Below are positions 4,161 through 31,299 of a DNA stretch of 32,620 nucleotides, piece after piece. The position numbers and the translations under genes were made by a program. The DNA is from Geobacteraceae bacterium GWC2_53_11 (lineage in GTDB: Bacteria; Desulfobacterota; Desulfuromonadia; Geobacterales; Pseudopelobacteraceae): positions 17,286 to 49,905 of the forward strand of contig MGZJ01000011.1 in NCBI GenBank assembly GCA_001802645.1. The letters run 5' to 3'. The first letter of the stretch is position 1. Each line of letters begins with the position of its first letter. The notes below the pieces were generated by a model. The model did not search any database. It saw nothing but the letters and a program-made list of their open reading frames with translations, and was not told the origin of the DNA.

Positions 4161-7100
4161 TCAAGAAATCCTGCGACACCCCGGACCGCTGAGGGTACTG
4201 CGCCCGGAACTGCCTGCTTCCACCTGAATTTGCGTACCGATGCGCTCCTTGAGCGCCGGGACATGCGAGATGATGCCGATCAGCTTGCCATCCTGCTGCA
4301 ATCCGGAAAGTGTTTCAAGGGCAGTTTCCAGGGCATCTTCATCCAGCGTACCGAATCCTTCGTCAAGAAACAGCGAATCGACACGCACGTTGCGGCTGGC
4401 CATGCTGGAAAGACCAAGGGACAGGGCCAGACTGGCGATAAAGCTCTCCCCGCCGGACAGGTTTTTGGTGGAGCGGATCTCCCCGGCCTGGTAGTTGTCG
4501 ATGACATTCAGTTCCAGAGGCTCATTGCCGTCGCGCACCAGAATATAGCGGTCACTCATTTTTTGCAGCTGCCGGTTGGCGTGGGCAACCATCAGTTCGA
4601 ACGTCAATCCCTGGGCAAAATTACGGAATTTCTTCCCGTCACCGGAGCCGATCAAGCTGTGCAAACGCTCCCAGCGGTCGCACTCCCGTTTCTGTATTTC
4701 AATCGCCTGAAGCCGCGTCCGATGACGCTGCTGCTGTTCGGACTGCTGCTGAAGCTGCTGATCAAGCGCACCAAGTCCCTTCTGTAACTCGATCAACTTC
4801 CCGGTAACAGCGGCATGCTCCTCACGAATCAGCTCAAGCGGCTTATCGGTCAGATGTTTATCCAGCTCCCCCGCGAGCGCTTCCGCGCGATCAAGGTGGC
4901 GGGTCCGGAGCGCTGTTTCTTCATTGCGCACGCTTTCTGCCACCTGCTGGAGAAGATCGAAGCGCTCCTGCGGCAGGCTTGCCTGCAATAAAGCCGTTTC
5001 ATCGGCAAATCCGGCCTCACCGAGACGCTGCCGGAAGGACGCTTCCAGCCCGCCAAGCTGCTCAGCCCGTTTGGCGATCGAGAGCGTCAGTCGTTCAATC
5101 TGCCCGTTCAACCCGCTAAGCCCGGCATGAAGAGTGTTCTGTTCCTGCAGTGCCGCTTCACGCTTTTCCGCCGCCTGGCGTACCGCTTCAGCCAAACGTT
5201 TTTCTTCCGCGTCCGGACTTCGCTCACCGTACATTTCCAGACGCTGTTCAACCAGCGCATCCCGTTGATCGATTCTTGCGCGCAGCAGCTGTTCCTTATC
5301 GCCGCGCATTTTTTCCAGCTCTGCCAGCAGCGCCTGCTGTTTTTCACGTTCCGCAGCAACAGCGGACGTCTCTTTTTCCAAACGTTCCCTGACGTGCTGC
5401 CGTTCGGCATACACGGAGCGCCGGACGGTCAGGGAGGCCAGTAACTCATCAACCTTGTCCGGAACGACCTCCGTACAGCCAAACCCTGCAACAGCACGCT
5501 CGACCTCACCCTGAACCCGTTCAAGATCCGCGTGATAACCAGCCGTTTCCCTCTCAAGACGAGTATGCTCCGAAAGAGCGTTTTCCCGTCCCAACCGGGC
5601 GGCCAGCCGCGAGTTGTCGCACCGTGCGAGTTCATCCTTGAGTCCGGCAAGCGCTGCTTCAGCTGTGCGCTCGTCCTGCTCATTCCGCTCACCCTCCTGA
5701 ATGACAGCGCGACTGTTTTTCAACGCCAGCTGACATGCGTCTGTCTCACGCCGGATAACTTCCGGCCAAGCCGCGCCATCGGCGGCCAGACCCAGTTCCG
5801 CGAAAGAAGTAGCGCAAAAGGTCTCATCATTCAGCAGACGTTCCTGAAGTTCGGCCAGGTCCCGCTCCGACTGGTGCAGATCTTTGCCGGCAGCGACCAG
5901 TTCCTGCCTGACGCCGGAAAGCTGATCCCGGACCCGTTTCGCCTCGGCGTGAGCAAGTTCCAGTTTATTCCGGGCCTCGTCCAACTGAGGGATATTTCCG
6001 GAGGCGTAGGGATGATCGCCGGCGCCGCAGAGCGGACACGGTGAACCGTCCACAAGCTGTTTGCGGTCTTCTTCAAGGCTGCGCACCCGGCCCAGCAGCA
6101 CAACGTTATCCTGCAACTGACGGGCAACCTGCTCACGCAGCTCACATTCCCCGGCAACTGTTTCCTCCTGCTGTGTGAGCCCCTGCCGTTTCTGTCCCAG
6201 AGCTTCCGTCCGCAGCAGCAACTCTGCCAGCTTCGCCTTGCCTTCTTCAATCCGCACGACGGTTTCCTGTATCGTTCCCAAACGGCTCTGTCTGGCGGCA
6301 ATTGCTTCCGCTTCAACGCGCCATACGGCCAGAGCCCGTCCCTGCAACAGTATTTCGCGAGCGGCCCGAACATCCGCCACGGTTTGTTCCGCCCCGGTTA
6401 CCGCCTGCTGCGCCGCCTGCCAAGCGGTCTCCGCCTGGGTAAGCGCGACTTCGGCAGCTGCCACCAGACCGGCCTGCCGGGCCAGCCTGGTGCCGGTCTC
6501 TCTGCAGTGATTTTCAAGCGTTTTGAACGACTTCACCTGCTGTTCAATCCCGGTAAGGGCCTCTGCCAATCCGGCATCGGCCCCGTGCCGGTCAAGAAAG
6601 ACCGCAATCTCCCGCAACTGTTCACCGGTACTGCTCAAGCGTTGATCACACGTTGTTATTGCCGTGCGATACTCACTGCTCTGGCGGCCCGCTGTTTCAA
6701 TCTCGGCAGTTAATGCGTGTATCTGGGCATGGGCCTCACCGAGTTTGACGTCAAGCTCCCGCGTTCCGCGGATCAGTTCGGCCTCTTCCGCCTGCCCGGC
6801 CCGGGCGCCGGCAAGTCCGGCTTCGGCACATTCCAGCGCATCAAAAGCGGCCTGCCAGTTGAGCTGAAGCGGGGGAAGACGTTCCAGCGAGACCGTCAGT
6901 TCATCCTGTTCCTTCTCCTGCTGCACCCGCATTGAACAGAGAGTGGCATGGTCACCACCAAGTTTCATGGCACGGCCGGCCTGTTCCAGGAGTTCCAGCT
7001 CCGGGGCTGCCACTGCCTTGCGCGCTTCAAAGGCATGCAGGTCCAGATCAAGCTGCCGAAGTTCACCTTCAAGGGTCGCTATCCGTTCCAACCAAAGCTG

Positions 7101-7835: not shown

Positions 7836-9064
7836 ACGTCACCCTGGCTGGTGTCTTCGTGCAGAGCAGCAACAGCCTCATGAAAAGCCGTGACCAGGTC
7901 GGCCTGCTGCTCCTGCGGCACTTCATGGGCAGCAAGACAGCGGGCAAACACATCGTCAACGGTGAGATCGTCCAGGGTCTCTTCGGTCGCCATCCGGCTC
8001 ATGGTTCGCTCGACCAGGCGCATATTCTTTGCCCGAAGAATTTCCAGTACCGTGCCGTCAACCAGTTCACGCAGCCGCTCCTGAAGATCGCCAACGACCT
8101 CTTCCCCTTCGTAGATAACTTCCAGCCACACCGGAACGTTATCTTTTTTCAGCTCAACAATCCGCTCCGAAATACGTTTCCAGTCACCGCGCACCGTTGC
8201 CAGTTTTTGAAAAACCGGTACAGGAAGTTCCTGTACCGTTATGCCTTCACAATCCATTGCGAGCGCTACAACCACCTTGCGCTGCGCGGCCTCGCCAAAA
8301 CTCATCGGGAGCGGCGCGCCGGAATAACGACGCACATCCGAGCCGCCCACCCGCTGCGCCCCATGCAAATGCCCCAGCGCCAGGTAATCGAAGCAATCGG
8401 GGAAGATATCGGCTTGTACCTGGCCAAGCGTGCCCACGTACAGTTCCCGTACCCCATCACCTTCCGTGGTCCGGCAACCGCTGGTAAACAGGTGTCCCAT
8501 GGCGACAATGGGAAGATCCTCCCCCAGTTGAACACGCCGGGCAACAGCCGCTACACCAATCTGCCGATAGTGATCGCGAATTCCATCCACCAGCTTACGG
8601 CCTTTGTCCTCAAATGTTTCTCCGGCCTCGGCGCGGCGGATATCGCGATCACGCAGATAGGGAACTGCGCAAACGATCAACTCGGGTTTACCATTGCTAT
8701 CGTTCAGCACCACCACTTCATCTTCCATGAACTCAGCCATGCTTCCGACCACATGGACGTCCAGAAAGCGCAGCACCTCGCGGGGAGCATTGAGAAGAGA
8801 GGGAGAATCGTGGTTGCCTGCCGTTACGACGACATGACGGCACCCTGCCCCCGCAACGCGGCACAGAAAACTGTAGTACAGTTCCAGCGCACGATTGCTG
8901 GGCGTGCCGTTGTCAAAGACATCCCCCGCCACCAGCAACACCTCGACCTTTTCAGTCGCAATGCAGCCGATCAGCCAGTCAAGAAATTGCCCGAACTCCT
9001 CGTAGCGTTTGCGCCCATACAGCGCCCGCCCTATGTGCCAATCGGATGTATGCAGAATTTTCAT
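7832..9064 (-). CDS. sbcD: SbcCD nuclease, Mre11-like subunit SbcD
   Basis: This is a 410-residue metallophosphoesterase-type nuclease and the catalytic partner of SbcC. The metal-binding motifs appear in order: SDWHIG (residues 7-12), GDVFD, GNHD, the histidine in GHLF, and GHLH. The C-terminal part carries the SbcD capping and SbcC-binding region. The reading frame stays open up to 9202, but that extension crosses a perfect hairpin and codes for non-conserved sequence. The ATG at 9064 begins the canonical MKILHTSDWHIG start and has an AAGGA ribosome-binding site about 10 bases upstream, so it was chosen. The stop codon overlaps the sbcC start. There is little room for a promoter between the hairpin (9096-9136) and the start, so the hairpin may lie in the sbcDC leader RNA. 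Confidence 0.96.
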   Translation of the reverse strand: MKILHTSDWHIGRALYGRKRYEEFGQFLDWLIGCIATEKVEVLLVAGDVFDNGTPSNRALELYYSFLCRVAGAGCRHVVVTAGNHDSPSLLNAPREVLRFLDVHVVGSMAEFMEDEVVVLNDSNGKPELIVCAVPYLRDRDIRRAEAGETFEDKGRKLVDGIRDHYRQIGVAAVARRVQLGEDLPIVAMGHLFTSGCRTTEGDGVRELYVGTLGQVQADIFPDCFDYLALGHLHGAQRVGGSDVRRYSGAPLPMSFGEAAQRKVVVALAMDCEGITVQELPVPVFQKLATVRGDWKRISERIVELKKDNVPVWLEVIYEGEEVVGDLQERLRELVDGTVLEILRAKNMRLVERTMSRMATEETLDDLTVDDVFARCLAAHEVPQEQQADLVTAFHEAVAALHEDTSQGDV

Positions 9065-9095
9065 AAAACCTGATCCTTTACATCTCTTCAACTTC

Positions 9096-9136
9096 GTTAC
9101 AAAGAAAGCCCGCAGTAAGCGGGCTTTCTTTGTAAC
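9096..9136. terminator. Perfect 18-bp hairpin between tRNA-Val and sbcD
   Basis: Bases 9096-9113 and 9119-9136 are exact reverse complements (GTTACAAAGAAAGCCCGC arms) around a 5-base loop, AGTAA. The GC core is flanked by A-rich and T-rich stem ends, as in a bidirectional rho-independent terminator. It lies downstream of the leftward tRNA and 31 bases before the sbcD start. It could be a second terminator for the tRNA transcript or a leader hairpin of sbcDC. Confidence 0.7.
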
Positions 9137-9190
9137 ACCAAACGGAGCTCTACGAGAATGAATATATCTCCGCTGATCTGAAACAAACAA

Positions 9191-9212
9191 AGGCCGGATC
9201 AATGACCCGGCC
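9191..9212 (-). terminator. Rho-independent terminator of tRNA-Val
   Basis: Read on the minus strand just past the tRNA, GGCCGG pairs with CCGGCC (9192-9197 with 9207-9212), with a short imperfect inner stem. It is followed by a T-rich tail (TTTGTTTGTTT). Position and orientation fit termination of the tRNA transcript. Confidence 0.75.
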
Positions 9213-9224
9213 GTAATTGTTTAT

Positions 9225-9299
9225 TGGTGGGCGTTGTAGGGATTGAACCTACGACCCCTGCCGTGTGAAGGCAGTGCTCTCCCGCTGAGCTAAACGCCC
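9225..9299 (-). tRNA. tRNA-Val(CAC) with encoded CCA
   Basis: On the minus strand the acceptor arms GGGCGTT and AACGCCC pair completely. The D-loop reads AGCTCAGCGGGAGAGC. The anticodon stem CTGCC/GGCAG encloses the loop TTCACAC, giving anticodon CAC (valine, GTG codons). The T arm contains GGTTCAATCC, and a genomic CCA follows the discriminator A (9225-9227). It is a complete, ordinary tRNA. The 3' end faces sbcD; no repeated copy of the tRNA 3' end was noticed in the window that would mark an integrated element. Confidence 0.95.
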
Positions 9300-9414
9300 C
9301 AATGACTGTAGTGATTACCAGAGCAGGCCGCTGCTGTCAAGGCATTGATGGCGTTTGTGGTCATGGGTAAGACTATTTCCGAAGATGCGCCCCCCGTCAC
9401 CCGTGTACCTTTTC

Positions 9415-9540
9415 CTGATACCTCATCAGTTTCAATTGACACCGGCTACACCATCTTGATACAAGTTGACACATCATAACACTTGATACAGCTTCTTCAT
9501 TACTCAGCAATCCAGATACATAACAATACAATCTGATACA
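9415..9540 (+). repeat. Iterated (C/T)TGATACA motif upstream of the HTH gene
   Basis: Five near-copies of one motif lie in the leader of the excisionase-like gene: CTGATACC (9415), TTGATACA (9456), TTGATACA (9483), CAGATACA (9513) and CTGATACA (9533). Three related TTGACAC/ATGACAT words are interspersed (9436, 9466, 9543). The first copy is also part of a palindrome, CTGAT-5-ATCAG (9415-9429). Start-to-start spacings are 41, 27, 30 and 20 bases, so the array is not strictly periodic. It could be an operator for the downstream DNA-binding protein; that is inference from position and repetition. Confidence 0.5.
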
Positions 9541-9573
9541 ACATGACATCAAATTATAAAGGACGTCTTCTCC

Positions 9574-10029
9574 ATGCCAACCAACACTACTGAACAACCC
9601 CTTGCAAAAACATCCAACAAGAAAACGGTTGCAACCGACATCAGCAGAATGCTGGAGGAAGCACCGTTGTTCGCCGGACTAGATGGATATGTATTGAGAC
9701 CGGCAGAGAAAGTAACAACTGGGACAAAAAAGAAGGTGGCAAAAGAAAAAAAGAAAGGTAGCGACTCAAAACAGCTGAAACCATCGCCATCAAAGAAATC
9801 CCCGCCGCACAACAGTCCCGATATTCAAAAACCATTTTCAGGCGATATGCTGCTTTCCGTGACAGAGATGTGCATACTGCTTAAGATTTCGCGGGCCACC
9901 CTGGTAAGAATGGATAAATCAGGCCAGCTGCCTGGTCGAATCAAGTTGGGCGGTTCGGTGCGTTTTCACCGTGAAACGGTTGAGGCCTGGCTGCAAAGCC
10001 TCATCTCGGCTCCCTCCACCGCACCCTAG
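9574..10029 (+). CDS. AlpA/excisionase-like helix-turn-helix DNA-binding protein
   Basis: This protein has 151 residues. Residues 92-142 form a MerR-type/excisionase-family HTH (starting LLSVTEMCILLKIS, ending VEAWLQSL), in which a phage-type Xis/AlpA fold reads DNA. Residues 1-45 are a short non-repetitive head and residues 46-90 a Lys/Ser/Pro-rich, probably disordered linker. The ATG has AAAGGA about 10 bases upstream. Isolated HTH_17 domains often occur in excisionases and in AlpA-like regulators of integrated elements. Here the gene is near a tRNA, but no integrase is in the window, so a stand-alone regulator is equally possible. Its TAG stop lies in the same CTAG tetranucleotide as the stop of the convergent neighbour. 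The repeat array in its leader suggests autoregulation. Confidence 0.85.
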   Translation: MPTNTTEQPLAKTSNKKTVATDISRMLEEAPLFAGLDGYVLRPAEKVTTGTKKKVAKEKKKGSDSKQLKPSPSKKSPPHNSPDIQKPFSGDMLLSVTEMCILLKISRATLVRMDKSGQLPGRIKLGGSVRFHRETVEAWLQSLISAPSTAP

Positions 10030-23786: not shown

Positions 23787-24203
23787 ATGAAAGCAGATAT
23801 CGTTCTGGATACCAATGTTCTCGTAGCCGCGCTCAAATCGTCGCGTGGCGCCTCCTTTCGTCTGCTTTCGCAGGTTGAACTTGACCGTTTCACCCTGCAT
23901 GTATCCACTCCGCTCGTCACAGAATATGAGGCGGTTCTGAAACGTGGCATTACTTCACTGTCGGCTGAAGAGATCGACGATGTTATAGATTTTATCTGTT
24001 CGAGAGCAGTACTGAATAAAATCTTTTATCTTTGGCGACCGGTATTGAAAGACCCTGATGACGATTTTGTTCTGGAGCTTGCTGTCAAAGCCAATGCGGC
24101 AATTGTCACCTGGAACGTAGCCGACTTTAAACGCGCCGCGCGGTTTGGCATTGCCGTGATAACCCCGCGCGAATTTCTTGCATCACTGGAGGTACAACCA
24201 TGA
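23787..24203 (+). CDS. PIN-domain toxin of a type II toxin-antitoxin pair
   Basis: The 138-residue protein is a PIN-family RNase-like toxin of the 'putative toxin component, PIN family' type. Acidic active-site positions are visible: the Asp in VLDTNVLVAAL (residue 7), the Glu in LVTEYEAVL, the Asp cluster in DPDDDFVLELA, and a late Asp in TWNVADF. It is full length and intact. No ribosome-binding site precedes the ATG, and the promoter position predicts a leaderless mRNA. It overlaps the antitoxin start by four bases (ATGA, 24200-24203). The toxin-first order is the reverse of many toxin-antitoxin operons. The target RNA cannot be read from sequence. Confidence 0.9.
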   Translation: MKADIVLDTNVLVAALKSSRGASFRLLSQVELDRFTLHVSTPLVTEYEAVLKRGITSLSAEEIDDVIDFICSRAVLNKIFYLWRPVLKDPDDDFVLELAVKANAAIVTWNVADFKRAARFGIAVITPREFLASLEVQP

Positions 24204-24436
24204 GCGCAATCAGTGTTCGTCTTCCCGATTCGATCCATAAAATGGCCCGAGAAGTTGCCAGCGAGGATCATATTTCCCTTAATCAATTCATCGCCTCAGC
24301 GGTGGCTGAAAAGCTCTCCGCCCTGACAACAGAAACTTACCTTGCCGGTCGTGCTTCTCGTGGTTCTGCTGACAAGTTCCGTGCGGCTCTGGCCAAAGTA
24401 CCTGCGGTAGAGCCGGATGAATTTGACCGGTTGTGA
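24200..24436 (+). CDS. Ribbon-helix-helix antitoxin
   Basis: The 78-residue protein has an N-terminal Arc/CopG-like ribbon-helix-helix (SAISVRLPDSIHKMAREVA, then ISLNQFIASAVAEKL) and a C-terminal tail, residues 45-78, ending in PAVEPDEFDRL, which probably binds the toxin. GGAGG lies seven bases before the ATG, so translation should be stronger than for the leaderless toxin. That arrangement would keep antitoxin in excess. The protein most likely also binds the inverted repeat in the promoter. Confidence 0.88.
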   Translation: MSAISVRLPDSIHKMAREVASEDHISLNQFIASAVAEKLSALTTETYLAGRASRGSADKFRAALAKVPAVEPDEFDRL

Positions 24437-24626
24437 CGCATCACCTTCCTCCAGCGCTCACCACCTATCAAGAATGCCTTGAGCCAATGAACTCCGAACA
24501 CCAAACTCGACAAGAATAGATCGACCTTTAACTGGATTGCACTGGCTGGACTTTGGGAAGCAGATGGCTGGTTGATGCGGAATATGTCGCACGTAGCGAT
24601 TTCCAAGCCGCCTTGAATAAATCAGC

Positions 24627-24678
24627 TTGTCGATGCGGTGAATACCGGTTATAATCTCCGCAAGAGGTGCGGTGAATG
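24627..24678 (+). promoter_or_regulatory. Promoter of the fic gene with a 10-bp direct repeat
   Basis: TTGTCG (24627-24632), a 17-base spacer and a perfect TATAAT (24650-24655) precede the fic ATG at 24676. TGCGGTGAAT occurs twice, at 24634-24643 inside the spacer and at 24668-24677 across the start codon. This suggests a repressor site or a leftover duplication. The 190 bases before it (24437-24626) hold no gene I can support. Confidence 0.6.
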
Positions 24679-25782
24679 ACAGTATATATCCATGAATTGC
24701 CGGATTGGCCAAGGTTCCGCTGGAATCAGGACAGATTGCTGCAGCACCTTGCGGCAGTGCGTCACCGGCAGGGCCGCCTGATAGGGAGAATGGAAAGCAT
24801 CGGATTTTCTTCCCGTGCCGAAGCGGTGTTGAGCACGTTGACACAAGACGTCCTGAAATCCTGCGAGATCGAAGGCGAAATCTTAGGCAGAGATCAGGTA
24901 CGTTCTTCCATTGCAAGGCATCTGGGAATTGACATAGGAGCGCTCGCCCAAGCCGACAGAAACGTAGATGGCGTTGTTGAGATGATCCTTGACGCCACAC
25001 AGAACCACAATCAGCCGCTGACCAGGGAAAGGCTTTCTCATTGGCACTCACTGCTCTTTCCGGCACATGATCGCAGGAGCAGCAAGATCAAGGTTGGTGC
25101 CTGGCGCGATGATTCCCAGGGACCGATGCAGGTCATTTCGGGGCCATATGGCCGGGAGCGTGTTCATTTCGAAGCTCCGGCCGCTGATCGGGTCGATAAG
25201 GAGATGACTGTCTTTCTCGACTGGCTTAACAGTAACGACACCATGGATCTTGTGTTGAAAGCCGGGATTGCCCACCTCTGGTTCGTGACCATTCACCCCT
25301 TCGATGACGGCAACGGCAGGATTGCGCGCGCCATCGCCGACATGATGCTGGCACGGTCGGAGCAGAGCAGCCAGCGTTTTTACAGTATGTCATTGCAGAT
25401 ACGTCAGGAGCGAAACGCCTACTACGGTGGTCTGGAAGAGACGCAACGCGGAACGCTGGATATTTCCAATTGGCTGGAGTGGTTTCTGGATTGTCTGAGC
25501 CGGGCGATTGGAGCAGCGGAGGAGACTCTGGCAATTGTGACAGGCAAGGCCCGTTTCTGGGAGTCCTGCGCCGGAGTAGCTTTTAACGACCGGCAGCGAT
25601 TGCTCATCAACAAACTTCTGGATGGCTTTGAAGGCAAACTGACGACGTCCAAATGGGCCAAGCTGGCGAAGTGCTCGCAGGACACTGCGTTGCGCGATAT
25701 TCTCAGCCTGGTTGAGCGCGGCGTCCTTGTGAAGGATTCAGCTGGCGGTCGCAGCACCAGTTATTCTTTGCGGGAGTTTTGA
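24676..25782 (+). CDS. Fic-family AMP-transferase (DUF4172-Fic type)
   Basis: The 368-residue protein has an N-terminal DUF4172-like domain (IHELPDWPRFRWN), a Fic core with the complete catalytic motif HPFDDGNGR (His207), and a C-terminal winged-helix-like region (about residues 300-368). S62-xxx-E66-G67 in SCEIEG fits the (S/T)xxxE(G/N) inhibitory helix, placed before the core as in class II Fic proteins, so activity is probably autoinhibited. Fic enzymes usually transfer AMP to a hydroxyl of a target protein. The ATG has GAGGTG six bases upstream. Some solitary Fic proteins act in phage defence or as toxins; the location beside toxin-antitoxin genes agrees, but the target is unknown. Confidence 0.92.
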   Translation: MTVYIHELPDWPRFRWNQDRLLQHLAAVRHRQGRLIGRMESIGFSSRAEAVLSTLTQDVLKSCEIEGEILGRDQVRSSIARHLGIDIGALAQADRNVDGVVEMILDATQNHNQPLTRERLSHWHSLLFPAHDRRSSKIKVGAWRDDSQGPMQVISGPYGRERVHFEAPAADRVDKEMTVFLDWLNSNDTMDLVLKAGIAHLWFVTIHPFDDGNGRIARAIADMMLARSEQSSQRFYSMSLQIRQERNAYYGGLEETQRGTLDISNWLEWFLDCLSRAIGAAEETLAIVTGKARFWESCAGVAFNDRQRLLINKLLDGFEGKLTTSKWAKLAKCSQDTALRDILSLVERGVLVKDSAGGRSTSYSLREF

Positions 25783-26017
25783 TTTTGATGACAACAGGAG
25801 CCAGTTTTCCCTGGTATTTACATCCGGAATTCCTTGCTTTGCCCTGTATGGGAGATAGAGGTAGACCCAAAATGAGTCCTCCGGCTGTTGTTATCACACG
25901 GAGCCACGGAGCCACAGGGAAAACCAGGATAAAGGCTTTCAGATCTTTGGTAAACCAAGCCGGTTGACTTTTTGTATGTATTTCAATACTGTTGCGGCGG
26001 GCGCTAACGTGATCTTT
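25783..26017. other. Intergenic stretch with a short tandem repeat, no gene seen
   Basis: No convincing coding sequence was found between fic and the dapL relic. The 8-base unit CACGGAGC occurs in tandem about 2.4 times at 25897-25918. A 62-codon open frame from 25779 is of low complexity and has no recognised similarity, so it is not called. Confidence 0.5.
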
Positions 26018-26173
26018 TCTTTCTTCGATAATTCCCTCAACGAATGCAATGTGGTCGGGACGCCCTGCTCCGGTTTCGGCCCGAGCTGGGAAGGGTATTT
26101 CCGGTTGTCGGCTTTCGACCATCGCGGGAATGTGATTGAGGCAGTGGAGAGGATAAAGAAAAATTTGAAGTAG
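26018..26173 (+). pseudogene. dapL: 3'-terminal relic of an LL-diaminopimelate aminotransferase gene (dapL)
   Basis: About 50 codons match the C-terminus of Dap[31 protein letters not shown] and [14 protein letters not shown], ending in a proper stop. The rest of the roughly 400-residue enzyme is missing, and upstream bases in this frame show no PLP-enzyme sequence. Two substitutions at normally glycine positions (GTPC and PSWEG) indicate decay. DapL converts tetrahydrodipicolinate to LL-diaminopimelate in lysine and cell-wall synthesis; a complete copy must be expected elsewhere if the organism uses this route. The relic keeps its own terminator, which suggests it is a recombination scar at the left edge of the four-gene island. 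Confidence 0.8.
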
Positions 26174-26182
26174 ATTGAGTTG

Positions 26183-26209
26183 ATAAGGCGGCCGACGAGG
26201 CCGCCTTAT
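26183..26209 (+). terminator. Strong hairpin terminator after the dapL relic
   Basis: ATAAGGCGGCC (26183-26193) and GGCCGCCTTAT (26199-26209) are exact reverse complements around the loop GACGA, followed by GTTTA. It isolates the downstream operon from read-through. The stem is symmetrical enough to act in both directions. Confidence 0.8.
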
Positions 26210-26250
26210 GTTTAAAATTAATATGACTGCACAAGTTAGGGAGAAACATA

Positions 26251-27558
26251 TTGAGTGGTGCACTGGCCTATAATGAATATGCTGATGAGCTTGAAGAGCT
26301 TGTTAAAGCGTCAATAATTGGTCAAAAATGCGCGAAAGTCCCCGACGAGGTGGCTAAGACTCTCGCCATTCAGTCCAATATTGAACTTCGAAAACTTGTC
26401 CCAATTGAGACACTTCGCGAAATGGGCGCATTTTTTACTTCCCATGAACTTGCAGAGAGGCTTGCCTTAACTCTTGAAAAAGAGCTAAGAGATGGTGCGG
26501 AAGTTATTGACATTGCTTGCGGAACAGGTGATTTGCTTGCCGCATGTGCTAAATATCTTCCTGCTGGAAAAAATTTGGATGAAACAATAAGTATTTGGGC
26601 AACTAAATTATTCGGAGTGGATCTTGATTCTGCATTTGTTAGGACTGCACAATCTAGGTTGCTCTTGCTTGCAATTAAATATGCGACAAACAATGTGGCG
26701 TCATGCCTTGACTTAACTAATGCTTTTAGTGGCATTTGCGTGGGAAATGCACTCAAAAGTGCAGATCTTATCAAAGGCAAAAAATGTGTAATAATCAACC
26801 CACCATTTAATCAAGTACCTGATCAAGGAAGATGTAAGTGGGCAACAGGAAAAGTATCTCAAGCTGCGATTTTTCTAGATTATGTTTTAGAAAATTGTGA
26901 TCTGGGGACAAGTATTGTTGCAATATTGCCAGAAGTTCTTAGAACTGGCACTAGGTATATGAAATGGCGAGAATGCATTGAAATTAATTCAGTTATTAAT
27001 GATGTTGAAATTATCGGGCAATTTGACAATAAGACAGATATTGATGTTTTTATCCTGAGACTTCAAAAGTGCACCCCTCGACCTCTAACTGAAATAAAAG
27101 AATGGTGGACATCTAGTAAAAATCAAATCTGTGAGTATGGAAAACTTGTCTGCGATTATTTTGATGTTGCAGTTGGAACTGTTGTTCCACATAGAGATCT
27201 CGAAAACGGAGCATCTTATCCATATATCACAGCACATTTGTTGCCTAAATGGTCGATATTTGATGAGATTGTCTCGAGAAGAAATTATTCTGGCAGGACT
27301 TTTATGCCCCCCTTTGTTGTTGTTAGGCGAACATCAAGGCCGAATGATAAATTTCGTGCTGTAGCTACGATAATTGCGGGTCAAGAACCTGTTGCTGTCG
27401 AGAATCATTTGATTGTGCTTATTCCTAAAACTAAGACTCTTAATGACTGTTTGGAATTGTTGGATGTTCTTAAACGAGACGAAACGAACGACTGGTTGAA
27501 CGAACGAATCAGGTGCAGGCATTTAACAGTTAACTCACTGAAGAACATCCCATGGTAG
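26251..27558 (+). CDS. Adenine-type DNA methyltransferase, first gene of the four-gene system
   Basis: The 435-residue protein is a class I SAM-dependent DNA methyltransferase of the N6-adenine (gamma-like) layout: motif X region GAFFTSHELAERL (about 59-71), motif I DIACGTGD (87-94), acidic motif II GVDLD (122-126), and catalytic motif IV NPPF (183-186). The C-terminal half is probably the target recognition region and matches nothing I recognise. The start is TTG at 26251 with AGGGAG six to seven bases upstream; no ATG with a good site is nearby. No specificity subunit or classical restriction endonuclease adjoins it. Its stop overlaps or abuts the next gene. Codons are distinctly AT-rich compared with the recG and pil genes. 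No clear promoter was found in the 40 bases after the terminator. Confidence 0.9.
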   Translation: MSGALAYNEYADELEELVKASIIGQKCAKVPDEVAKTLAIQSNIELRKLVPIETLREMGAFFTSHELAERLALTLEKELRDGAEVIDIACGTGDLLAACAKYLPAGKNLDETISIWATKLFGVDLDSAFVRTAQSRLLLLAIKYATNNVASCLDLTNAFSGICVGNALKSADLIKGKKCVIINPPFNQVPDQGRCKWATGKVSQAAIFLDYVLENCDLGTSIVAILPEVLRTGTRYMKWRECIEINSVINDVEIIGQFDNKTDIDVFILRLQKCTPRPLTEIKEWWTSSKNQICEYGKLVCDYFDVAVGTVVPHRDLENGASYPYITAHLLPKWSIFDEIVSRRNYSGRTFMPPFVVVRRTSRPNDKFRAVATIIAGQEPVAVENHLIVLIPKTKTLNDCLELLDVLKRDETNDWLNERIRCRHLTVNSLKNIPW

Positions 27559-27566
27559 GTGGTCTT

Positions 27567-29615
27567 ATGCTAGATAAAATGTCCGGGCTCCACATGAAAG
27601 TTTCTACGGGCATTCTTGCTCGATTAGGCGAGGAATTAACTCCAGACCCTGATCAAGGAATAATGGAGTTGGTTAGGAATGCATATGATGCTGATGCTAC
27701 AGAGTGTCGAATTGAGATATTAGGTGAACAAGGCAAAACATCGGTGATTATTTCCGACAACGGTGTTGGAATGGATGTATCTGGAATAGACCTAGGTTGG
27801 TTGGTTCTCGGTAAATCAAAAAAAGCAGAACATCGCCTAACCCCGAAAGGACGTGTCGCTGTGGGTGATAAGGGGCTTGGGCGACTAGCAGCGCTACGAA
27901 TGGGAAAGGAGGCGCTGCTAGTCACAAGACCAGCCAATCAACCCGGAACGCAGTACGAAATTATGCTTGATTGGCCAAAGTTTGATGCCGCAGATTTTCT
28001 AGAGGATGTTGACCTCGATATCCAATCAAGCAAAACTACAAAAGGTCCAGGAACAGAGATATTTGTAACAGAAATAGGAAACTCTCTTTCTCGAAAAGAT
28101 ATTGAGCGGCTTGCCCGTCATATCCTATTGATGGCTGATCCTTTTGATGACTCTCTTGGTTTTCGGCCGACCTTAATAGCACCTGCTTTTACTGATTTAG
28201 AAAAAAAAGTTCAAAATGCGTACTTTGATGATGCGGAATATCACTTGGTTGCTTCACTAAATGATAAATTTTTGGCATCTGCATCTGTATTGGATTGGAA
28301 AGGAAATATCGTATGGCACACTGACAACCTTGGTGGAGAATACAAAGCTCCTCCAACGTCCTTTGATCTTTGGGTATTCTTACTTCGTGCAAAAACATTT
28401 TCGACAAGAAATGCGACTGTGAGTGAGGCAAGAGAATGGCTAAAGGTTGTGGGAGGGGTTCATCTATACCATCGTCAATTACGAGTACGACCTTACGGTG
28501 ATGCTGGGCATGATTGGTTAGAGATGAATCTCTCTAGAGCTAAAAGTCCTGAAGAACGCCCATCGACAAACACATCTATTGGGAGAATTGTAGTGAAGGA
28601 TCTGGATTCTGTTCTTATGCAGAAAACAGATCGTATGGGGTTTGTTGAGAATGAAGCGTTTCACGAGTTGAAAAGGTTTGCAAAGGACTCATTAGATTGG
28701 ATGGCAAGGATGCGTCTGAAGGATGCTGAAACTCGGAGAGAAACTGACAAACAAAATGCGAATAAAGAAGTTACAAAAGGGAAAGATCGCATAACGGAGT
28801 TTATTGATAAAGAAGTCGCCTCTGATAAGCAAGAAGTTCTTAAGCAGGCTTTTGAACAGTTTGAAAAGGCTCTTGAACGTCAGACAAAAACATTAAGAGA
28901 AGACCTGCAATTGTATAGATCTCTTGCGACGGCAGGGACTACATCTGCTGTTTTCGCGCATGAAGCCACTAAACCTGCTACTCAAATTGAAAAATTGTCT
29001 AGCCTCATTCGACGCCGTGGAACAAAAGAATTTGGGGAACCTTTCGTACGCATTTTGTCACCTCCGCTTGAACTTATATCAAAATCAGCGCAATCTCTTC
29101 GAAGCTTTGCAAGTCTACCTCTCTTTTTACTCAAACGAGAGAAGAGACGTGCTGAGATTGTCGATATTCACAAAATACTTAGCGACATCCTCACTCTGTT
29201 TGGAACGTTTTTGAGTGATTCTAAAGTTGTCATAGAGACCGACTTTGTTGATGAAACTGCAAAGATAAGAGGCAGTGTCGCGCTTGCAGAAGCAATTTTT
29301 GCGAACATCATAACTAACGCCATCAATGCTTTCAAAGTAAATGGCGCCCGAGTGCGTGGGCGTAAAATTCTTATAACAACTAGCAAGTCAGGCCCAAGAT
29401 TAGTCGTTCGATTTCTAGATAACGGTCTGGGTATAAGAGATATTGATATTGCTGAGATATGGCTGCCTGGACGGACAACATTTTCTGACGGTACAGGATT
29501 CGGACTAACAATTGTTCGTGACGCAGCTCAGGATTTAGGCGGGAAAGTTCACGCAATTGCGTGTGGAGAGCTAGGCGGTGCTGAGTTTATCGTCGAATTT
29601 CCTTTGGGAGAATAA
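27567..29615 (+). CDS. Dual-GHKL protein: Hsp90/MutL-like ATPase domain fused to a histidine kinase core
   Basis: From ATG 27567 the protein has 682 residues. AGGTGG lies just upstream; an in-frame ATG at 27552 would add five residues and overlap the methyltransferase stop. The N-terminal GHKL ATPase is complete: ELVRNAYDADA (about 34-44), SDNGVGM (about 63-69) and GDKGLGRLA (about 100-108). A middle region of about 250 residues is unrecognised, then a charged coiled coil (about 380-455). A dimerisation-helix-like motif FAHEATKPA follows, with His465 in the position of a phosphorylated histidine. The second GHKL domain has N-box NIITNAINAF, DNGLGI (about 617) and GTGFGL (about 641). It resembles no common sensor kinase: no membrane segment, PAS or GAF. 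It probably senses DNA or a phage product through the N-terminal half and phosphorylates the next gene's product. Confidence 0.9.
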   Translation: MLDKMSGLHMKVSTGILARLGEELTPDPDQGIMELVRNAYDADATECRIEILGEQGKTSVIISDNGVGMDVSGIDLGWLVLGKSKKAEHRLTPKGRVAVGDKGLGRLAALRMGKEALLVTRPANQPGTQYEIMLDWPKFDAADFLEDVDLDIQSSKTTKGPGTEIFVTEIGNSLSRKDIERLARHILLMADPFDDSLGFRPTLIAPAFTDLEKKVQNAYFDDAEYHLVASLNDKFLASASVLDWKGNIVWHTDNLGGEYKAPPTSFDLWVFLLRAKTFSTRNATVSEAREWLKVVGGVHLYHRQLRVRPYGDAGHDWLEMNLSRAKSPEERPSTNTSIGRIVVKDLDSVLMQKTDRMGFVENEAFHELKRFAKDSLDWMARMRLKDAETRRETDKQNANKEVTKGKDRITEFIDKEVASDKQEVLKQAFEQFEKALERQTKTLREDLQLYRSLATAGTTSAVFAHEATKPATQIEKLSSLIRRRGTKEFGEPFVRILSPPLELISKSAQSLRSFASLPLFLLKREKRRAEIVDIHKILSDILTLFGTFLSDSKVVIETDFVDETAKIRGSVALAEAIFANIITNAINAFKVNGARVRGRKILITTSKSGPRLVVRFLDNGLGIRDIDIAEIWLPGRTTFSDGTGFGLTIVRDAAQDLGGKVHAIACGELGGAEFIVEFPLGE

Positions 29616-29618
29616 TTT

Positions 29619-30305
29619 GTGGATTTGAATATAAAGAAAGTTGCCATTATTGATGATGACGATATGGAAATTGAGATCGCTAAGATGTATCTTGCGGAAC
29701 TTGATCTAGAGCCTGTTATTCTTGAGGGTCCGTTTGACTCTGTAGATATATTGGCGAATCTTATCAAGGAAACTGCAGATGCAGCATTATGCGATCACAG
29801 ACTTATCACTAATGCATATGCAAATTTTTCCGGGGCATCATTGGTCGCAAAGCTTTATGAGCTGAAAATCCCTGCCGTCCTCATAACCCAATTTTACGAT
29901 ATGGATACAGATTCTTCCATTCGCCAATGGCGCGAGTTCATCCCAGTGCTCCTTAGCAGGGATGAGGCTTCATCTGAGAAATACTTTGAAAGTTTTTTGG
30001 CCTGCTACAATGAACTCGAAAAACGACGCCCTCCAAGCCGGCAGTATCGTCGCGCCATCTTGAAGATAGTTGGCCTTTCTGGTTCAGGAAACGATACGGT
30101 AGTTGATGCAATAATTCCAGGATGGAACATGAAGCATGCAGTACGGTTTCCAATATCACTTATCAGTAAAGAGTTAGTCCCATTCTTAAAAGTCGATCAA
30201 CGCTTTCTGGCAAAAATGAATATTGGTACAACAAATCCCGATGAGTTGTTCTTCTCAGATTTTGAAAAGGCGCCAGAACCAGAGGATACCGATGGCTTCG
30301 CATAA
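29619..30305 (+). CDS. Receiver-like protein with unknown C-terminal domain
   Basis: The 228-residue protein starts at GTG 29619, three bases after the previous stop, with GGGAG upstream. Residues 5-120 look like a divergent response-regulator receiver: strand VAIIDDDD (acidic pocket, Asp12-15), probable phosphoacceptor Asp59 in ALCDHRL, and Thr90 in VLITQF. The usual conserved lysine after the fifth strand appears to be replaced (PVLLSRDE, Arg114). Residues 125-228 form an unrecognised domain with no helix-turn-helix, so it is unlikely to be a transcription factor. The last 14 bases overlap the start of the metallo-hydrolase gene. It probably passes the kinase signal to the effector by protein contact. 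Confidence 0.8.
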   Translation: MDLNIKKVAIIDDDDMEIEIAKMYLAELDLEPVILEGPFDSVDILANLIKETADAALCDHRLITNAYANFSGASLVAKLYELKIPAVLITQFYDMDTDSSIRQWREFIPVLLSRDEASSEKYFESFLACYNELEKRRPPSRQYRRAILKIVGLSGSGNDTVVDAIIPGWNMKHAVRFPISLISKELVPFLKVDQRFLAKMNIGTTNPDELFFSDFEKAPEPEDTDGFA

Positions 30306-31299
30306 ACTTTTTCTTCTAGATGTTGGTCATGGTAATTGTTCAATTGTTGTGAATGGCGATAAGTTGACCGTCATTGACTCACCAACAGGCGCTACCCTTT
30401 TGGAAACGCTTGAGAGTCTTGGCGCAACGGAAATTGAGAATGTCCTTATCTCACATGCGGATGCAGATCACATCGGTGGAATTACGAATCTCCTTCTTGA
30501 TAACAACATTCGCATAAAACGAGTATTCGTCAACCCAGATTCTGTCAAAGATACGGCAGTTTGGTATGATTTCCGATGTGCTGTCAAAGACGCGGCCACT
30601 CGGGGTACGACTACGACTCCAGCTCTCACCACCACTCAATCCCCTGATCTTAGTGACGATACCGTTCAATTCGAAGTTATTGCACCTACACCGGAGACTG
30701 CACTAGGAGGCGTTGGCAGCCAGGACTTGGCAGGTAGATCGATAAATAGTAACTCCATGTCGGTTGTTATTAGAGTTTTATACAAAGGTGTTCCCGTTGC
30801 TCTTCTCCCTGGCGATATTGATTCCGCTGGATTGGAAAATCTCGTAGCTGGCGGCAAATTAATTCAAGCAAAATATTTTGTTTATCCACATCATGGCGGA
30901 TTGTCGAAGGGATCTTCTGTCGCATTCACCACAGAAATTTGCAGGCTCGTTAGCCCACAAGTAGTTGTTTTATCAATTGCGAGAGGTGGCAAGTACAATA
31001 ACCCACGACCTGAGATAATATCTGCCATTTGCGAGGTATTGCCTGATGCACATATCATATGTACACAACTAGCTACTCACTGTTCTAAGGATGTACCACC
31101 TGTTACTGAGCATCACTGCAGTTTCCCAGCGCGTGGCATGTCAGATCAGTTGTGTTGCGGTGGGACTATTTCAATAGATTTTGACCGCCTCGATGAATCT
31201 CCATCTGAAATACATGCTGATCATATCGCTTTCTTGGATCAGGTGAGCACTCCTATGTGTCTGAGCAAAGGCATGAAGGCGGTTGTGCCGTCGACATGA
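30292..31299 (+). CDS. ComEC/Rec2-like metallo-beta-lactamase-fold hydrolase, likely effector
   Basis: The ATG at 30292 has AGAGG six bases upstream and gives 335 residues starting MASHKLFLLDVGHGNCS. An earlier in-frame ATG at 30223 is inside the previous gene and adds non-conserved sequence. The MBL core shows DVGHG, the metal motif SHADADHIGG (His55, Asp57, Asp59, His60), NSNSMSVVIR, LLPGDID (Asp175) and YPHHGG (His200-201). This pattern matches the soluble hydrolase domain of ComEC, which degrades DNA, without its membrane channel. The C-terminal 80 residues carry four to six cysteines (CTQLATHC, HHC, LCC), perhaps a metal site. It has no secretion signal, so it acts in the cytoplasm. A nuclease role is inferred; other phosphoester substrates such as nucleotides are possible. 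Confidence 0.88.
   Translation: MASHKLFLLDVGHGNCSIVVNGDKLTVIDSPTGATLLETLESLGATEIENVLISHADADHIGGITNLLLDNNIRIKRVFVNPDSVKDTAVWYDFRCAVKDAATRGTTTTPALTTTQSPDLSDDTVQFEVIAPTPETALGGVGSQDLAGRSINSNSMSVVIRVLYKGVPVALLPGDIDSAGLENLVAGGKLIQAKYFVYPHHGGLSKGSSVAFTTEICRLVSPQVVVLSIARGGKYNNPRPEIISAICEVLPDAHIICTQLATHCSKDVPPVTEHHCSFPARGMSDQLCCGGTISIDFDRLDESPSEIHADHIAFLDQVSTPMCLSKGMKAVVPST

Follow-up and report, generated by a model that had tools for sequence, protein, structure and literature searches.

What is the role of a small protein with an excisionase-type DNA-binding fold whose gene lies beside a tRNA gene and is preceded by a dense array of short direct repeats? The question is raised by a stretch of 32,620 nucleotides (hereafter the window) from Geobacteraceae bacterium GWC2_53_11, whose genome comprises 4.28 Mb in 91 contigs. 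The gene, at positions 9574-10029 of the plus strand, encodes a protein of 151 amino acids and has the array directly upstream. It is faced by the 5' end of a tRNA-Val(CAC) gene on the minus strand (9225-9299), which is a neighbor only and lies outside the system described here. One flank of the locus consists of this tRNA together with sbcD and sbcC (Pfam assignments), and the other of a protein without Pfam match, a PilS-like kinase, and genes of type II/IV secretion families. Relatives of the protein occur in records named Geobacter sp., Deltaproteobacteria bacterium, and Desulfuromonadales bacterium. The initial annotation had considered two origins for the arrangement, the residue of an element integrated at the tRNA or a self-contained regulator with a multi-site operator. 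The repeats that precede its orthologues and the arrays dispersed through its genome strongly support the latter. As judged from sequence, the protein is quite likely an autoregulator with a winged helix of the BldC/excisionase type that coats phased repeats cooperatively and serves a small, scattered regulon.

The operator array (9415-9549, plus strand) contains eight direct repeats of the TTGAYAC type over 135 bp. The units of the first block start at 9415 (CTGATAC), 9436 (TTGACAC), 9456 (TTGATAC), and 9466 (TTGACAC), and those of the second at 9483 (TTGATAC), 9513 (CAGATAC), 9533 (CTGATAC), and 9543 (ATGACAT), the units at 9513 and 9543 having two mismatches each and being recognized by eye. 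Each block is mostly in a 10-bp register, and the second is 7 bp out of step with the first. The best triple-repeat match, TTGATACAAGTTGACACATCATAACAC (9456-9482, plus strand), deviates by two mismatches from three TTGAYAC units spaced by 10 bp. The original count of five YTGATACA-like and two TTGACAC words was reproduced by reading the sequence. Six units with at most one mismatch fall between 9400 and 9573, compared to a mean of 1.2 after dinucleotide shuffling (none of 2000 shuffles reached six), and elsewhere in the window no 150-bp stretch holds more than four on either strand. By contrast, neither exact word is enriched over the whole window, with three matches to YTGATACA (1.5 expected) and six to TTGACAC (4.3 expected), so that only the clustering and phasing of the repeats are unusual. 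The concern that the motif might be no more frequent than background is thus justified for whole-window word counts and unjustified for the cluster. A sigma-70 scan of 9060-9640 detected no promoter on the coding strand at the array; its sole match was on the minus strand, which leaves the promoter of the regulator gene unplaced. That minus-strand match (9553-9580, scoring 11/12, where shuffled sequences average 0.8 promoter-like matches) spans the start codon of the regulator and aims through the array toward tRNA-Val.

Orthologues carry the same arrangement. A pair of repeats spaced by 10 bp is present on the coding strand upstream of all eight close orthologues, that of the window included, and the possibility raised earlier that the motif would be missing there does not hold. 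Over these eight regions the pairs number eight, versus 0.106 expected, and none is found on the other strand. The spacing is also recovered by a motif-free test in which 22 upstream regions from 21 genomes (G124 has two copies) were matched to themselves at lags of 5-30. Self-matching peaked at lag 10, with a mean of 18.5/30 compared to 12.3-13.6 at the other lags from 5 to 19, and again at lag 20 (15.7), the background over lags 5-30 being 12.1-14.6. When lags 5-17 were ranked, lag 10 was best or tied for best in 16 of the 22 regions and not best in the other six; little lag-10 signal was found by this measure in G005, G095, and G107. Some distant homologues have kept the 10-bp spacing with a changed word, such as TGAAACA in G068 and G072 according to our own reading. 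By our own unscored reading, 17 bp separate a TTGACA unit from a -10-like hexamer in G103, G127, and G017, which would make the repeat double as a -35 box. Upstream of the repeats in distant homologues (loci L103, L107, L108, L109, and L111), a conserved stretch resembling GTAACACGGGGGCA can be seen by eye, and in some copies it is perhaps part of a hairpin.

The genome search proposed in the initial annotation revealed further arrays scattered through the genome. A triple pattern made of three units spaced by 10 bp (TTGAYACNNNTTGAYACNNNTTGAYAC, at most three mismatches) has eight matches in the genome of the window, and the reversed pattern, used as control, has none. Among 76 genomes of the family, the 18 that are gene-positive contain 60 matches (control 4) and the 58 that are gene-negative contain 17 (control 13); four of these 17 are in G024, an assembly 66% complete in which the gene was undetected. 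Gene-positive is defined by a profile match at E 1e-12 and includes divergent homologues, and three genomes with the gene (G068, G072, and G095) belong outside the family covered by this search. Two or more matches occur in 13/18 gene-positive versus 2/58 gene-negative genomes, a comparison over related and therefore not independent genomes. When own operators are excluded, 38 of the 60 matches are left, spread over 11 of the 18 genomes. A non-operator site is absent from the other seven, and any triple is present in 13 of the 58 gene-negative genomes. Non-operator matches are concentrated in part of the gene-positive genomes (seven each in G000, G021, and G121, six in G104), and the excess is thus carried by some genomes. 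It vanishes at 11-bp spacing, which yields six matches in the gene-positive set of 18 (control 4) and 16 among the 58 gene-negative genomes.

The triples also extend in phase by two more units on both sides, as seen in 45 sites that include own operators and the G024 sites. Flanking units within three mismatches were found at 38-47% of in-phase positions versus 8-11% out of phase. The unselected positions 8-10 at these sites are 67-74% A/T, compared to 52% in DNA 40-70 bp away, and the two positions that precede each TT, likewise unselected, are 67% and 73% A/T. In several genomes, the longest arrays are those at the regulator's own gene. The original observation is thus confirmed and proves to be larger, as it did not include the 10-bp register, the conservation of this register, or the copies across the genome.

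The regulator carries its winged helix at the C-terminus, at about residues 91-146. Residues 93-142 match HTH_17 (Pfam PF12728; 2e-11, 44.4 bits versus a gathering cut-off of 27) and TIGR01764 "excise" (4.6e-10), consistent with the excisionase-type domain and Lys-rich linker noted at the outset. The name AlpA-like given to it is loose, because HTH_17 is the sole Pfam family passing E 0.001; no AlpA family does so, and the 13 PHROGs rows up to E 0.1 do not name one either. The linker, predicted to be disordered, runs between the winged helix and a conserved PLFAGLDGY segment at residues 31-39. Structure prediction was confident for the winged helix alone (block-mean pLDDT of 86-90 over residues 91-140), and the rest of the model had low confidence and formed neither helix nor strand. 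When the eight orthologues from eight genomes, including that of the window, are aligned, the winged helix is nearly invariant, the linker is variable, and a second conserved block, PLFAGLD(D/G)(Y/F), appears near the N-terminus. By this prediction and the HTH_17 match, the protein corresponds to a winged helix without the coiled coil or effector domain of MerR. A sequence search of solved structures with E up to 1 returned BldC-DNA complexes as the sole matches (E 0.036 and 0.049). The leaders of the fold list include RdfS, BldC, GIsul2 excisionase, and Pukovnik Xis, with Foldseek E values of 0.014-0.073 and the RdfS structure 8dgl at rank 1. A second fold comparison gave Z of 7.0-8.2 over 51-56 residues with rmsd of 1.8-3.4, where a Z of about 7 may reflect only a common arrangement and the absence of a family from the fold lists excludes nothing. 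The resemblance to BldC is modest by both sequence and fold.

BldC from Streptomyces binds direct repeats of variable number and controls a regulon. According to its description, its consensus is AATTXXXX(C), Arg30 reads a C:G pair, one helical turn separates the protected tracts at the smeA-sffA promoter, and the repeats in the whiI crystal are 9 bp (PMC5859096). The system described here has in common with BldC the single winged helix and the direct repeats of variable number about one turn apart, which in our case are sequence features. AATTGAYAC fits the BldC consensus as given there, and TTGAYAC gives TTXXXXC. R112, invariant in the eight orthologues, aligns with BldC residue 30 (6amk 9-60 versus model 91-142) and R130 with Arg48; the other two wing residues reported there, His46 and Arg47, differ (S128 and V129). 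Unlike BldC, which has 68 residues and no long arm, the regulator has an N-terminal arm of about 90 residues bearing PLFAGLD(D/G)Y, and its repeats are spaced by 10 bp rather than the 9 bp described for the whiI crystal. It scored 12.5 bits with NCBIfam HTH_BldC (NF033787), below the cut-off of 77, and therefore is not filed as BldC, although it may work like BldC.

The analogy draws on the fold, R112, the unit consensus, and one unit per turn, and we infer binding, cooperativity, repression, and a role for the arm. The simplest account is head-to-tail binding on phased repeats. One protomer would occupy each TTGAYAC(A) unit, with R112 reading the C:G pair and the wing reading the A/T-rich stretch. 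Adjacent protomers would be separated by one helical turn (10 bp) and would bind cooperatively, resulting in a short filament of about 3-7 units. Because the array upstream of the regulator gene covers the region in which the promoter must lie, negative autoregulation is the likely result and would set the protein level. At other arrays, transcription of unrelated neighbors might be adjusted. The disordered basic N-terminal arm could add non-specific affinity for DNA, and the PLFAGLD(D/G)Y segment is probably a docking element for some other protein. A more elaborate proposal would take these proteins as an undescribed family of Geobacter relatives, tethered through the arm and PLFAGLD(D/G)Y to a partner, forming phased filaments on a 10-bp code, and carried with the operator in a cassette of about 0.7 kb moving as one, the arrays shaping chromosome regions in addition to switching genes; we consider this improbable as a whole.

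The sites beyond the operators are mostly intergenic (27 of 33 versus 16% expected, binomial 1.6e-16; 24 of 30 if three G024 sites are excluded), in a count that omits own operators and a single G119 site and that defines coding tracts by a crude longest-ORF rule of at least 110 aa. They occur in both orientations and some lie between convergent genes, a poor fit to promoter control. In the genome of the window, they adjoin a SulP-type transporter together with a protein without Pfam match; a separate 178-aa protein, also without Pfam match; an exonuclease and, further on, a gene matching Asn_synthase/NAD_synthase (Pfam) that we take to be LarE-like; a pair that we read from the translation as MoaA-like/MOSC-like; a lipoprotein-like gene together with a CheX-like gene; DUF502/HSP70; and DUF2279. 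Neighbors in other genomes include Bax1-I, LUD/ferredoxin, a dicarboxylate symporter, a dienelactone hydrolase, a member of the old-yellow-enzyme family, FUR, rhomboid, and PelG. Thirty chosen neighboring proteins were compared for a function common to the targets, and none emerged. The DUF502/HSP70 locus carries an array in two gene-positive genomes, G000 and G005, in different gaps, and no array in 12 gene-negative genomes that have a DUF502 match, where the best triple in the loci compared has at least six mismatches. This locus was chosen after both sites were known, and its site occurs in only two gene-positive genomes of the 14. The remaining four genomes of the genus that carry the regulator gene gave no DUF502 match at 1e-20. 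Further sites are common to G011, G021, and G024, which look like close relatives.

The comparison of the tRNA locus among relatives, also proposed at the outset, showed that operator and regulator come and go together. In the window, the next gene has its 3' end at 10026, which is 727 bp from the 5' end of tRNA-Val. In G032, G019, and G026 the match to this gene is only 108-152 bp from the tRNA, and about 680 bp with operator and regulator are missing. Operator and regulator are absent from this spot in several relatives and orthologues lie elsewhere; the two have thus been gained, lost, or moved together. The operator and regulator are a gained or lost cassette (about 9345-10025, plus strand, with edges uncertain by tens of bases). 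In G015, sbcD directly adjoins the next gene, with neither tRNA nor regulator. G014 (locus L171) has a different stretch of about 680 bp in the place of the cassette, and the spot may thus be a hotspot of gain and loss. A tblastn search with the regulator found no copy at 28 tRNA-Val loci of relatives (flanks up to 1.5 kb). Five orthologues (G005, G011, G021, G001, and G104) have an OMP-decarboxylase neighbor in common, four of them also a SpoU-type methylase, and the orthologue of G017 has neither. No target-site duplication was seen by eye.

A segment that is present or absent beside a tRNA and encodes an excisionase-type domain, with a fold that matches RdfS and the Xis proteins of GIsul2 and Pukovnik, is what an integrative element might leave behind at tRNA-Val; the protein would then once have served as an excisionase (recombination directionality factor), with the repeats as its arm or att sites. 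However, a scan of 24 proteins of the window, which represent 23 genes (one of them incompletely) from a list of 147 ORFs, found no recombinase, in line with the original remark that no integrase is here. Nor did the search for a partial tRNA-Val copy succeed: an 18-base word with up to three mismatches hit only the tRNA itself in the window, and an 85-base query at E 0.001 hit, besides itself, only two matches of 72-76% in the genome, which look like other tRNA genes; such searches would miss very short fragments and att cores. Integrases usually use the 3' part of a tRNA, and the regulator is on its 5' side. Moreover, none of seven orthologous loci has a tRNA in flanks of 1.4-6 kb, and gene-positive genomes have the repeats at many further places, most of them intergenic. 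This origin, the first of the two considered originally, is thus largely refuted and highly unlikely to be correct.

The repeats could also be sites of another regulator, or several overlapping -35 boxes for sigma-70, with the gene as a target instead of the source of the binder. TTGACA is the sigma-70 -35 consensus, and the -10-like hexamers 17 bp from a repeat in the three genomes mentioned above are good ones by our reading. Nevertheless, array counts track the presence of the regulator gene across genomes, some distant homologues combine a shifted word such as TGAAACA with an unchanged 10-bp spacing, and -35 boxes need no 10-bp register, which makes this explanation very unlikely. We also regard it as unlikely, if less so, that the protein organizes the chromosome and that its arrays nucleate filaments which shape or anchor DNA instead of acting as operators. 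Such a role would agree with mostly intergenic sites in any orientation, convergent gaps included, and with a basic arm predicted to be disordered. It would also agree with the map of G121, the sole single-contig gene-positive genome with non-operator sites. Non-operator arrays are found there at 1.96, 2.34, 2.55, 2.90, and 4.30 Mb, four of the five no further than about 0.55 Mb from the point opposite the contig start, whose first gene we take to be dnaA. This terminus pattern, however, is a post hoc observation on few sites of one genome, and the skew sampled there was too noisy for the terminus to be located. Each genome has just a handful of sites, and in several genomes the longest arrays are at the protein's own gene, which speaks against this role.

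The cooperative autoregulator that we favor can be placed among described proteins. RdfS, the excisionase and regulator of ICEMlSymR7A, is oligomeric and binds its own promoter region, and its report gives no consensus motif for it (PMC11963761). It shares the winged-helix fold, and unlike RdfS as described there, the present system has a clear motif and no integrase or conjugation genes were seen here. Lambda and Pukovnik Xis are winged helices as well, the former forming a filament on DNA according to the title of 2ief, and differ in that no link to recombination was found here. KfrA of plasmid RA3 is an autoregulator with five 9-bp direct repeats overlapping its own promoter (PMC7783346). 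It serves as a working analogy, being described there as an alpha-helical, unrelated protein with a role in plasmid maintenance. MAD1 of the methylation-associated defence system has a related HTH domain (NCBIfam 1.6e-8, PADLOC 1.5e-6), but the regulator reached 34.7 bits versus a cut-off of 80, and no MADS operon was seen beside it. A literature search found no description of the regulator family or its repeat. Sites of the BldC type are often hard to read from sequence, and here TTGAYACA every 10 bp is readable across a bacterial family. Predicted binding sites can be listed genome by genome, and the homologues with TGAAACA constitute a natural experiment on shifts of specificity in proteins of this type.

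Several minor observations concern the surroundings. A protein of about 155-220 aa (FNPLH...), with no Pfam match in the two members that were scanned, lies beside distant regulator homologues and is present in 14 of the 76 family genomes. It is found at L103:6461-7024, L106:6381-6911, L107:6634-7173, L108:3891-4406, L109:4211-4864 and 5848-6501, and L112:6174-6647. As it is absent from the genome of the window, this protein (alignment A2) was rejected as a member of the system. Between sbcD and tRNA-Val in the window there is a perfect 18-bp inverted repeat (9096-9136, 5 bp between arms), perhaps a terminator. Further along, positions 23787-31299 contain PIN-domain and HicB-like genes, a Fic protein (SoFic-like in PADLOC), an N6 methylase, a GHKL-type ATPase with REase-type PADLOC matches, and a protein with a metallo-beta-lactamase fold, a gene cluster that by appearance looks like a defence island.
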